NCBI RefSeq assembly: GCF_000280055.1
Contig: NZ_ALAB01000028.1
Span: forward strand, 1-64,000
Length of the DNA: 64,000 nucleotides
Reading direction: 5' to 3'
DNA from: Alishewanella aestuarii B11
GTDB lineage: Bacteria > Pseudomonadota > Gammaproteobacteria > Enterobacterales > Alteromonadaceae
In this document: in pieces, positions 49,512 through 53,211 of the stretch
How the letters are laid out: the number at the start of each line of letters is the position of its first letter
How positions within the stretch are numbered: position 1 is the first letter of the stretch
Notes under the pieces: model-generated
What the model saw: the letters and a program-made list of their open reading frames with translations, nothing else
Told to the model about the DNA's origin: nothing
The model's database searches: none
Position numbers and translations under genes: made by a program

Positions 49512-49979
49512 ATGACAAAACAAAACCGCCAGGAAGCGCTGATCCATGCATTTAAAGCCTTATTGAAAACGGAAAGTTTTGGTTCTCAGGGCGAAATTGT
49601 CGATGCGCTGAAAAAAGAAGGGTTTGATAACGTTAGCCAGTCCAAAGTCTCCCGTATGCTGAGCAAATACGGTGCGGTACGCACCCGTAATGCCAGACAG
49701 GAAATGGTCTACACCCTGCCACCGGAGCTGGGGGTACCTACCACCAAAAGCCCGCTACGGCAGTTGGTGCTGGATATCGAGCACAACGATGTGATGATTA
49801 TTATCCGTACCAGCCCGGGTGCGGCGCAACTGATTGCCCGCTTGCTGGATTCAGTTGGTAAAGCGGAAGGCGTATTGGGGACCATCGCGGGTGACGATAC
49901 GATTTTTATTGCGCCGATTAGCGTGAAAAATATCGACTTTACTTTGCAAAAAGTGACGGAGTTATTCGAAAAGGTCTGA
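49512..49979 (+). CDS. argR: Arginine repressor ArgR
   Basis: Arginine-dependent hexameric repressor of arginine biosynthesis; also a recombination accessory factor in E. coli. 155 residues: winged helix (residues about 1-70, with [20 protein letters not shown]), and a C-terminal hexamerisation and arginine domain ([33 protein letters not shown]) with the GTIAGDDT arginine-binding loop. The ATG at 49512 matches E. coli ArgR; an ORF opening 35 codons upstream has no similarity. Its last 18 bases overlap the end of the convergent DyP gene. Confidence 0.95.
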
Positions 49980-50912
49980 GGATGTACCAAGGCTGCCATT
50001 AGCGGCAGCCTCCAGAAAGCCCAGAGCAGGAACAAAAAAGGCCGCGGCTAAATCGATGCGGTAGAAATCCAGCAGGCTGTCGTAATATCGCCCTTCATTT
50101 AAGCCTAAGCGGTAATGCCATTGCTGTGCAAAGCGCTCGGCCTGATGACTAAAGTTCAGCACCAACAGGCCCTGACTATTGCCCTGCGCAAAAGGCATAT
50201 TTTGTTGCAGCAGAGGGAGCGGTGCTAACCCGCCAGCCAGACTGCACTGCAGATGGCTGTTAGGCAACAGTCGCTCAGCCGGTAGCGGCTTGCCATCGGT
50301 TTTCGCAAACCCCAGAATCTCTTCCTGTTGCGCTACGGTCAGTTGCTGCCAGTGTTTCAGGTCCAGGTTGGCACGATAAAAATGCAAATAACTACCGCCA
50401 GCGAACATGGGGGAATCGACAGCCGGCACCAAAGCAGCCTGACGCCGTTTTATACCGCGGGGATTCTGCGGCGCATCCGGAAAACCGGTAAGTTGCCTGC
50501 CATCCAAATAACGGAAGCCGGAGAGTTGCTCAGACACTTCAATATTCGCCAGCAACAGCTGCTGGATCTGTTGTAGCGCAATATAGTTTACATCCAAGCG
50601 ATCCGATCTGACCTGGATCAGTAAATCAGCCATACTGCAGCTCACTGCCAGATGCTCTGAAGGTAGTACCGGAAAGGCCTGCAAGCCTGACGGGCGTTGC
50701 CAGGGATAAAGGCTATCCCAATAATGACTACTGATAGCCACCAGACCGGTTAGCATCGACTCCGAAAAATGTTCGGCCAAGCGTTGCAACATTTGTGGAA
50801 TGCGCAGCAGCTTTTGCCGCAAAATGGCTTCCTGCCCGTCCAGGACGTTACACAGCAAATAGCTCGCATGTAAATTTGCTTCGGCACAAATGCCTAATTG
50901 TTCCCGCGCCAT
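49962..50912 (-). CDS. DyP-type peroxidase-like haem protein (YfeX-like) with altered active site
   Basis: A 316-residue protein aligned by eye with the YfeX group of dye-decolorising peroxidases. [19 protein letters not shown] (residues 133-151) matches the YfeX stretch that contains [27 protein letters not shown] the next block, and [10 protein letters not shown] the block with the proximal haem ligand (His220). The catalytic Asp is kept (Asp146), but the second Gly of GxxDG is Ala, and the distal Arg of YfeX (VRQSLPYG) is replaced by Gln (LQQNMPFA, Gln236). Haem binding is plausible; classical peroxidase activity is doubtful. It has no signal peptide. The alignment rests on my memory of E. 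coli YfeX. Monocistronic, convergent and overlapping with argR. Confidence 0.8.
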
Positions 50913-50992
50913 GCCAGTGTAAGAGTTCCGGTCTGTTTAATATCCTTGCCCCTAGTATACCCTAAATCAGTCTAAGCTTAATCCCCCGAAAG

Positions 50993-51014
50993 TTTGTGAG
51001 ATATATCTCACAAA
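50993..51014. promoter_or_regulatory. Perfect 22-bp palindrome, operator candidate
   Basis: TTTGTGAGATA is followed at once by its exact complement, giving a gapless 22-base palindrome in the spacer between the DyP gene (81 bp from its start codon) and the CsrB-like RNA (about 170 bp from its likely start). The TGTGA and TCACA halves are eight bases apart, not six as in a CRP site. The cognate regulator is unknown. Confidence 0.6.
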
Positions 51015-51126
51015 AGACGCAGCCAAAACGCTATTTTTAGCCACCACCTTAGGAACAAAATACAATAAACATCTGTATTTAAATAACTTATTCAAATTAA
51101 CCACTATCTTACAACTTTATGACTAA

Positions 51127-51144
51127 GGTACGAATTGTCTTACA
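51127..51144 (+). promoter_or_regulatory. Possible GacA/UvrY box upstream of the CsrB-like RNA
   Basis: GGTACG-N6-CTTACA fits the GacA/UvrY consensus TGTAAG-N6-CTTACA at 10 of 12 positions. It lies about 45 bases before the likely transcription start; a -10-like CATAAT sits at 51171-51176, and no good -35 is visible, as expected for an activator-dependent promoter. A second CTTACA half-site lies about 35 bases upstream. Confidence 0.45.
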
Positions 51145-51182
51145 TGCCCCCAAAAGCTGCGGCAAAGGTGCATAATACTCAC

Positions 51183-51636
51183 ATCGACGGAATGATAGCT
51201 GACAGGAAGTTAGCTGGCAGGATGCCCGACAGGAGTCGAGCGCTTTAATGCGCAGCAGGTGCCGGATGCACTGAACAGGCAGGATGCACAAGGAAGAAAC
51301 AGGACACCTTCAGGATGAAGAAGGCTCGGCAGGATGAAAGAGCTTTGATGGACAGCCTTGGATGGCAATATTGTTCCCGGGTCGCAGGCTGCGGCCAGGC
51401 AGATGGTAGTAAGGATAGCCGTTACCATCATAGGATAAGTCATCGTTGATGACGGCAGGATGCACTAGCGGGCACCGGAGTGCCCACTACCGGAACTCAG
51501 GATACTGACCGGATGTCAGTTGCAGGATGCTCAGGCGGGATGCCATCAGGACGAACAGGATTTGCCTCAGGGATCGAGGTTGCAATGGATGCATCAGGAA
51601 TCAGTGGCCGCGCAGTTTGCGGCCAGCTTCCTTTAT
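51183..51636 (+). ncRNA. csrB: CsrB-family CsrA-sequestering regulatory RNA
   Basis: This interval encodes no credible protein and is dense in GGA: I count about 26, six of them inside an exact CAGGATG, the classic CsrB repeat. Several lie in hairpin loops: GTGC-CGGAT-GCAC (51259-51271), CTTC-AGGAT-GAAG (51308-51320), GGGCAC-CGGA-GTGCCC (51470-51485), ACTGAC-CGGAT-GTCAGT (51504-51520) and GGC-GGGAT-GCC (51534-51544). These are CsrA-binding structures as known from E. coli CsrB/CsrC. A terminator-like hairpin at 51605-51625 closes the unit. The 5' end is estimated from a -10-like box; length about 450 nt. CsrA itself is not in the window. Confidence 0.85.
51605..51634 (+). terminator. Terminator hairpin of the CsrB-like RNA
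   Basis: TGGCCGC at 51605-51611 pairs with GCGGCCA at 51619-51625 around a seven-base loop, followed by GCTTCCTTTAT. The T-tract is interrupted, so termination may be leaky; T-runs near 51648 and 51662 could serve as later stops. Confidence 0.6.
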
Positions 51637-51778
51637 ACGACCTCACTTTTTTCGCCCCAGCTTTTTTACCCCAAATACACGCTAATATTTTTTTCAGCTA
51701 ATACCAGCTACCTTTCTGGCCGCCTTATTTTCGCTTGCCTTTGCACACCCGTGCCTGGCGCAACAGTTCCGCTGACAG

Positions 51779-51808
51779 ATAAAAAAACCCCGCGGCTTTC
51801 ACCACGGG
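51779..51808 (-). terminator. Intrinsic terminator of amtB
   Basis: CCCCGCGG at 51787-51794 pairs with CCACGGGG at 51801-51808 (one mismatch) around CTTTCA. Read on the minus strand it is followed by seven T. It lies about 135 bases after the amtB stop codon. The stretches on either side of it (51640-51778 and 51809-51942) show nothing else that I can support. Confidence 0.85.
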
Positions 51809-51942
51809 GCGTCAAATTCAGACAAAGGACAAGGATAGACGTGTTTAGGTGGTTCAGGTTTAGTGGGGATTGCCGGTTAGCGGTGCTAACAGGGTTTCGC
51901 CCACAGGCTCCCGCAACGTGCCACCTGCACGCTGCGGGCTGC

Positions 51943-53211
51943 TTACTTTACCGAGGCGACAAATTCAGGATAGGCTTCGATACCACACTCTGAGCTGTCG
52001 ACACCCTCGTATTCGGCTTCTTCGCTGACCCGGATACCGATCACTAATTTCAGTACGAACCATACTAATAAACTGGTGGCAAATACCCAACCGAAGATGG
52101 TCAGAGCACCAATAAGCTGGCCGCTAAAGCTGCTATCGGCATTAGTAATAGGGACTAACAATAAGCCATAGAAGCCAACCACACCGTGCACCGAAATCGC
52201 ACCAACCGGATCATCGATTTTGCTTTTATCCAAAGCCAAAATTGAAGCGACCACTAATACACCGGCTATCGCACCGAAGATCGCGGCTTGTAATGGTGTC
52301 GGCGTCGAAGGTTCAGCAGTAATCGCCACCAATCCCGCCAGGGCGCCGTTTAGCGCCATGGTCAGGTCGGCTTTGCGGAACAGGATCACCGAGGTAATCA
52401 GGGCGGCAACCACGCCTGAGGCAGCGGCGGCGTTGGTATTCAAAAACACCACCGCAACACTGTGCGCATTGGCAATATCGCCCAGTTTTAATACCGAGCC
52501 GCCGTTAAAGCCAAACCAACCCATCCACAGGATCAAAGTACCTAAAGCTGCCAGCGGCATATTGGCACCTGGGATCGCATTGACTTTACCGTCTTTACCG
52601 TATTTGCCTTTACGGGCGCCTAACAGTAATACCCCGGCCAATGCAGCTGCAGCACCCGCCATATGCACTATGCCTGAGCCGGCAAAGTCAGAGAAACCCA
52701 GATCGCCTAAGTTATATAAGCCAAATACTTCTTTACCGCCCCAGGTCCAGCTGCCTTGCATCGGGTAGATAAAGCCGGTCATGACCACGGCAAAGGCTAA
52801 AAAGGCCCATAATTTCATCCGCTCCGCTACAGCACCAGAGACAATCGACATTGCTGTCGCGACAAAGACCACCTGAAAGAAGAAGTCAGAAGCACCGGAA
52901 TAGACAGCGTCACCGGTAAAATCATCTTGCTCCGCAAAGGAGGCTAAAGTGGCATCAACATCAATTTCAGCGATACCTTGCAGGAAAATGCCGCCATCGT
53001 ACATAAAGTAGTAGCCGCAGACTAAATACATGATGCAGGCAATCGAATAGAGCGCGACATTCTTAGTCAGAATTTCGGTAGTGTTCTTGGCCCGCACCAG
53101 ACCGGCTTCCAGCATCGAAAAGCCCGCCGCCATCCACATCACCAGCACCCCACAGATCAGGAAGTAGAAGGTGTCCATTGCAAACTGTAAATGATAAATT
53201 TGTTCTTGCAT
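51943..53211 (-). CDS. amtB: Ammonium transporter AmtB
   Basis: Trimeric inner-membrane ammonium channel of 422 residues and eleven predicted helices. The twin pore His are in GSGIVHMAGAAAALAG and ISVHGVVGFYGLL; the first family motif is TFYFLICGVLVMWMAAGFSMLEAGLVRAKN. There is no clear cleavable signal. GlnK binds the cytoplasmic face under nitrogen sufficiency and blocks the channel. It lies 11 bases downstream of glnK in the standard glnK-amtB operon. Confidence 0.95.
   Translation of the reverse strand: MQEQIYHLQFAMDTFYFLICGVLVMWMAAGFSMLEAGLVRAKNTTEILTKNVALYSIACIMYLVCGYYFMYDGGIFLQGIAEIDVDATLASFAEQDDFTGDAVYSGASDFFFQVVFVATAMSIVSGAVAERMKLWAFLAFAVVMTGFIYPMQGSWTWGGKEVFGLYNLGDLGFSDFAGSGIVHMAGAAAALAGVLLLGARKGKYGKDGKVNAIPGANMPLAALGTLILWMGWFGFNGGSVLKLGDIANAHSVAVVFLNTNAAAASGVVAALITSVILFRKADLTMALNGALAGLVAITAEPSTPTPLQAAIFGAIAGVLVVASILALDKSKIDDPVGAISVHGVVGFYGLLLVPITNADSSFSGQLIGALTIFGWVFATSLLVWFVLKLVIGIRVSEEAEYEGVDSSECGIEAYPEFVASVK

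Follow-up and report, generated by a model that had tools for sequence, protein, structure and literature searches.

A predicted CsrB-type small RNA gene beside a DyP-type peroxidase gene in Alishewanella aestuarii B11 and its conservation in Alishewanella and Rheinheimera

Results and Discussion

A GGA-rich region between the DyP and amtB genes

The window analysed, a contiguous stretch of 64,000 nucleotides from Alishewanella aestuarii B11, carries a DyP-type peroxidase gene and the ammonium transporter gene amtB, separated by an intergenic region of about 1 kb in which a small RNA gene is predicted (Table 1). The length of the predicted RNA, about 454 nt, depends on its end having been set 12 bases beyond the hairpin motif. 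The stretch 51183-51636 contains 26 GGA, 16 AGGA, 13 CAGGA and 6 CAGGATG motifs, and none of these four counts is reached by any of 2000 dinucleotide shuffles (GGA mean 14.0, maximum 24; CAGGATG mean 0.15, maximum 2). The richest 420-base stretch of the whole window starts at 51178 and holds 26 GGA, the best value elsewhere being 14 and the peak on the reverse strand (TCC per 420 bases) likewise 14. An initial annotation, made from the sequence alone, had reported about 26 GGA and six CAGGATG, counts which are thus borne out; the -10-like box and the terminal hairpin that it had described are also present. It had further claimed at least five short perfect hairpins whose loops contain GGA. Eleven non-overlapping short hairpins that carry GGA in the loop or at it were counted; 300 dinucleotide-shuffled sequences average 4.0, and none of them reaches 11. 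Shuffles that preserve the GGA tokens have a higher mean, 7.7, and 11 is attained by 25 of the 300; the hairpins of this single sequence are therefore only mild evidence. Folding of 51183-51636 alone, a check proposed in the initial annotation, gives a mildly unusual result, slightly better than shuffled sequences (z -1.98; 4 of 100 shuffles equally stable). The case for real hairpins rests on the relatives of this RNA and not on the single sequence.

Table 1. Features of the locus and of the second RNA. Positions are those of the window, except in the last row.
Feature	Position	Strand	Remarks
DyP-type peroxidase gene	49962..50912	-	divergent from the RNA; Pfam Dyp_perox_N and Dyp_perox_C
UvrY/GacA-type 18-bp perfect palindrome TGTGAGATATATCTCACA, predicted activator site	50995..51012	.	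conserved in the genus
GGTACG-N6-CTTACA, candidate box of the initial annotation	51127..51144	+	10 of 12 positions match TGTAAG-N6-CTTACA
-10 promoter element CATAAT (predicted)	51171..51176	+	[CG]ATA[AC]T in 31/31 loci
CsrB-type CsrA-sponge RNA gene (predicted)	51183..51636	+	GGA density, Rfam CsrB match, held-out model R2, covariation in relatives
Terminator-like hairpin TGGCCGCGCAGTTTGCGGCCA, weak T tract after it	51605..51625	+	motif pattern in 28/31 genus loci
amtB ammonium transporter gene	51943..53211	-	convergent with the RNA; Pfam Ammonium_transp
Second GGA-rich RNA (predicted, 303 bases)	G000:C1:202856-203158 = L059 1030-1332	-	box, 8 GGA, strong terminator

Eight short open frames overlap 51183-51636. 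With tblastn, seven of them have counterparts in 3-6 of 31 loci of the genus (Alishewanella/Rheinheimera; the count includes the A. aestuarii locus), and several of these contain stops. For the eighth frame, 51520-51993, such matches extend to 12 of the 31 loci, but its alignments other than those to A. jeotgali and A. agri cover 51643-51990, past the RNA and towards amtB. Within the RNA, the tblastn comparison of the 31 loci shows no reading frame common to the genus, in agreement with the earlier view that the short frames are not real genes. Outside the RNA, the plus-strand translation of 51784-51990 can be traced in some ten genus loci in addition to the near-identical one; this signal may reflect a conserved amtB 3' region or an antisense signal. 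A strong terminator-like site is found on the minus strand at 51787-51810, downstream of amtB, and the weak hits to NsiR1, suhB and other Rfam families at this site appear to reflect a resemblance between terminators.

Conservation and covariation in Alishewanella and Rheinheimera

The DyP gene, the activator box, the -10 element and the GGA-rich stretch occur together in all 31 genus genomes, the RNA adjoining the DyP gene in each of them, while amtB is seen in 14 of the 31 fetched stretches (2-3.3 kb each). The DyP protein of the window shares 99.7% identity, over its length, with its counterpart in Alishewanella jeotgali, 78% with the one in A. agri and 65% with one from a Rheinheimera. Most of the 28 RNAs that were measured are 327-391 nt long with 18-25 GGA, compared to 454 nt and 26 GGA in the window, and longer forms are also found in A. 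jeotgali (454 nt), A. agri (438 nt) and two further loci (L013, 535 nt; L025, 491 nt).

Two alignments were made, one with 28 of the 31 RNAs (A2; L010, L021 and L041, which are without the hairpin pattern, were left out) and one with 15 of the 31 (A1), the window copy and those of the named Alishewanella genomes lying outside the latter. Guided by the RNAalifold result and by the sequence, 10 local hairpins comprising 50 pairs were named on A1, most of the hairpins with GGA in the loop. The paired cells amount to 98.0%, compared to 94.2% when shuffled, and fall to 23-53% when the partner is slid by 1-3 columns. Two-sided (compensatory) changes are found at 18 of the 50 pairs, compared to 4.1 when shuffled, and none of 500 shuffles reaches 18. 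As the structure was derived from the same 15 sequences the paired percentage is favoured, and more weight attaches to the two-sided changes. The covarying structure is thereby established on 15 shorter relatives, a set outside which the longer Alishewanella form lies. In A1, 17 columns of GGA are conserved in 60% or more of the relatives, 10 of them throughout the 15, so that the alignment of related genomes called for in the initial annotation does reveal conserved GGA loops.

A covariance model (R2) was built from A1, and hence without the window copy and the copies from the two named Alishewanella genomes; its single match in the A. aestuarii genome lies at 51209-51636 (59.4 bits, E 1.4e-15). 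Among CsrB-type loci of the order the model gives 20-38 bits in L002, L003, L004, L006, L008 and L014, and below 15 bits in L005, L007 and L026. A search of 50000-52500 with 4227 Rfam families places CsrB/RsmB (RF00018) as the best match, over the whole model length (29.1 bits, E 1.3e-5), the next-best family having an E of 1.8, and this is the sole Rfam CsrB match in the genome. The gathering score of RF00018, 71 bits, is not reached, nor is that of any Rfam family anywhere in the 64-kb window, and the Rfam matches in 50000-52500 with E values of 10 or less include no RsmX, RsmY or RsmZ family. The covariance-model search that had been suggested for this RNA gives a CsrB match under the cut-off and, up to that E value, none to RsmX/Y/Z. 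At E 0.001 or better, Rfam CsrB is found in 33 of 41 genomes (own and 40 relatives). These include 24 of the 25 genus genomes, all under the cut-off, the one missed (G005) carrying the RNA nevertheless, as well as 9 of the 16 genomes outside the genus, 5 of them above the cut-off. Since no score in the 25 genus genomes attains 71 bits, the RNA is not filed under RF00018 as curated. Elsewhere in the order, five CsrB matches stand in tandem, about 700 bases apart, at G032:C1:4533806-4536939 (L004), and another relative (G025, C1) has six.

Promoter and predicted activator site

An exact copy of TGTGAGATATATCTCACA occurs at a single place in the 3.59-Mb genome, compared to about 4e-5 expected from the base composition of the window, and the box is found at the RNA with 0-3 mismatches in all 31 genus genomes. 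The [CG]ATA[AC]T element keeps a nearly equal distance to the box in the 31 loci. From the centre of the box to the predicted +1 there are 179.5 bases in the window and 178.5-180.5 across 28 genus loci, which is close to the 182.5 bases by which the box centre precedes the start of E. coli K-12 csrB, as measured from the sequence record. According to Zere et al. 2015 (PMC4682653), phosphorylated UvrY protects the palindrome TGTGAGAGATCTCTTACA at E. coli csrB, centred at -183/-182, and TGTGAGATATATCTCACA is close to this footprinted site. The upstream box pointed out in the initial annotation, GGTACG-N6-CTTACA, does exist, but the conserved box is the palindrome at 50995-51012. A 10-of-12 match is found at the position of the former in 3 of the 31 genus loci, and it is probably not the main activator site.

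The palindrome starts 83 bases from the start codon of the DyP gene. This short distance, together with the adjacent position of the DyP gene in all 31 genus loci, suggests that DyP may share the control, and the box could serve this divergent gene as well, or instead.

The Csr cascade and the identity of the RNA

The partners expected of a Csr sponge are encoded in the genome. A single csrA gene is present, its 66-aa product scoring over the NCBIfam CsrA cut-off and retaining Leu4 and Arg44, residues known to bind RNA. The UvrY homologue is 62% identical to E. coli UvrY (281 bits, compared to 102 for the next match) and is over the NCBIfam UvrY/SirA/GacA cut-off, while the BarA homologue is 39% identical to E. 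coli BarA over residues 5-906 (590 bits, compared to 227 for the next match). BarA responds to metabolic end products. By analogy with the systems of E. coli (PMC4682653) and Shewanella oneidensis (PMC3171408 and PMC11045786), UvrY phosphorylated via BarA would bind 50995-51012 and switch on transcription. The GGA motifs of the RNA would then, as in known sponges, bind many CsrA dimers, whereby mRNAs would be released from CsrA.

Taken together, the Rfam match (although under the cut-off), the presence in all 31 genus genomes, the covariation, the spacing of the box and the CsrA, UvrY and BarA homologues support the initial reading as a CsrB-family regulatory RNA, and on these sequence comparisons 51183-51636 almost certainly encodes a CsrB-type small RNA. 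The related claim, that it is the Csr sponge RNA of this lineage, holds as far as the CsrB type is concerned but not as to its being the only one, since a second RNA of like design exists at C1:202856-203158 and probably shares the CsrA-sponge task.

The many GGA in hairpins and the module GGACAC-N3-CAGGATG (51302-51317 in the window) are held in common with E. coli CsrB and RF00018. So are the UvrY-type 18-bp palindrome at about -180 (PMC4682653 for E. coli) and the BarA, UvrY and CsrA homologues. The RNA differs from E. coli CsrB in its predicted length (about 454 nt, compared to 369 nt annotated in E. coli), in its weak T tract and in its neighbours, DyP and amtB here and syd and yqcC in E. 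coli. Similar in size are CsrB1 and CsrB2 of Shewanella oneidensis, predicted at 420 and 421 bp, for which PMC3171408 gives CsrA-binding motifs and a UvrY box, as here, and a demonstrated dependence on BarA and UvrY, a system also represented by homologues in A. aestuarii. According to the same paper, the two csrB genes of S. oneidensis are split by a transposase, whereas in A. aestuarii one csrB-type gene and a different second RNA were found.

The kinship to CsrB may nevertheless be questioned, as GGA motifs can arise convergently, the Rfam CsrB score is under the cut-off, and the second RNA has the same design with little sequence likeness (R2 gives it 9.0 bits). A GGA-rich CsrA sponge of independent origin, or one of the RsmX/Y/Z kind, would account for these observations without descent from CsrB. 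This is, however, unlikely. No RsmX/Y/Z family is found among the matches up to E 10, and the box is spaced as in E. coli csrB. Moreover, E. coli csrB is hit by R2 in the correct orientation, at a modest 24.0 bits (130 kb searched, E 4.3e-6), and the matched part, 812-1010 of L035, leaves the 3' end with the terminator outside; against E. coli csrC the score is 9.8 bits (E 0.1). A csrB match outside the terminator, together with the module found in both this RNA and E. coli csrB, argues for descent from CsrB rather than chance likeness. The likeness beyond the terminator thus favours such descent, the scores being modest and R2 having been built from relatives.

The position of the RNA between amtB and DyP, with the box 83 bases from the DyP start codon, might instead suggest a cis-acting leader or attenuator of either gene. 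As amtB is convergent and DyP divergent neither lies downstream of the RNA, however, and amtB is seen in fewer than half of the fetched genus stretches (14 of 31). In addition, three loci of the order (L008, L014 and L026) have CsrB matches and the box with no DyP gene found in the 3.3-kb stretch, all of which makes a cis-acting role highly improbable. The short open frames could likewise be taken to mean a repeat artefact or a short protein gene. Those inside the RNA are not common to the genus, though, and the alignment is rich in indels while the hairpins are kept, which leaves this reading with hardly any credibility beside that of a CsrB-type RNA.

The RNA is ordinary in kind, a CsrB-type RNA below the Rfam cut-off, and no report of it in Alishewanella or Rheinheimera was found in the open-access literature, which was covered mostly as titles and the beginnings of abstracts. 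Its value lies in placing the BarA-UvrY-Csr switch in a genus where the Rfam cut-offs report nothing in the window, and in making a predicted start, an activator site and an alignment available for tests.

A second sponge-like RNA

When up to three mismatches are allowed, the box occurs at one other position in the A. aestuarii genome, G000:C1:203327-203344 (3 mismatches), upstream of the second GGA-rich RNA of Table 1; the conserved palindrome can thus lead to sponge RNAs missed by sequence models. This RNA is flanked by a di-heme cytochrome c gene, presumably encoding cytochrome c4, and by a methyltransferase-domain gene, and beyond the cytochrome gene lies engB (NCBIfam YihA/YsxC, 233.9 bits), divergent from the RNA. 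The same arrangement, with the box at up to three mismatches, is found in 26 of the 31 genus genomes, where the centre of the box lies 175.5-177.5 bases from the predicted start and the RNA holds 7-9 GGA. Two alignments contain 23 (A4) and 17 (A5) of the 26 copies known at that stage, and RNAalifold on 23 of the 26 gives 39 pairs, 12 of them with two-sided changes. As a covariance model of the second RNA (R1) finds it in the remaining five genomes as well, the RNA is present in all 31; three of these five have a recognisable or degenerate box and in two (G020 and G022) none was seen.

Across 119 genomes of the order, under stricter filters, R1 matches 19 (own included) and leaves 100 without a match. 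Fourteen of the 18 matches in other genomes adjoin the cytochrome gene, 13 of the 14 with engB and 12 with the methyltransferase gene. Besides the own match, those not counted are G047 (11 GGA, another neighbourhood), G025 (2 GGA at the locus), G026 (terminator only) and G057 (no hit to any of the three neighbour genes). Because R1 is blind to gene neighbours, the shared neighbourhood provides independent support. The 14 loci contain 6-16 GGA. A UvrY box is recognised among them in G082 only, and none in the 13 genomes of other genera or families (L084-L095, L097), suggesting a different control of the second RNA there.

The neighbourhood is reminiscent of E. coli csrC, which starts divergently beside yihA (engB); the orientation is alike, while here the cytochrome gene intervenes. 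Against R1, E. coli csrC obtains 24.9 bits when the terminator is included and 4.7 bits when it is left out, and several CsrB-type loci of the order obtain 20-28 bits, a level like that of csrC. The gathering score of Rfam CsrC (RF00084), 61 bits, is reached in none of 40 genomes (all 31 genus genomes plus 9 of the 14 other order genomes). Among the 19 weaker CsrC matches listed, 18 cover the last part of the model only and one is full-length, the end-of-model matches being noise that arises in four unrelated control genomes too. Weak full-length matches are those of L061 (26.2 bits) and L089 (24.4 bits), the former absent for its genome (G005) in the 40-genome search. The second RNA is accordingly regarded as a sponge-like RNA, possibly CsrC, and its kinship to CsrC as suggestive. 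In Alishewanella and Rheinheimera it shares the box of the CsrB-type RNA, whereas 13 of the 14 other genomes are without a recognised box, which would imply that the control was rewired between families. That it represents an ancient sponge of the CsrC type which has stayed next to engB and the cytochrome gene in several families of the order, under control rewired in this way, is a tentative proposal with somewhat less in its favour than against it. With the second RNA, hypotheses on how the CsrB/CsrC pair arose could become testable. A TGTAAGA/TGTAGGA-like half-site is often seen 5 bases past the palindrome of the second RNA; it resembles TGTAGGAGA at E. coli csrB, whereas the loci of the first RNA are without a half-site at that position.
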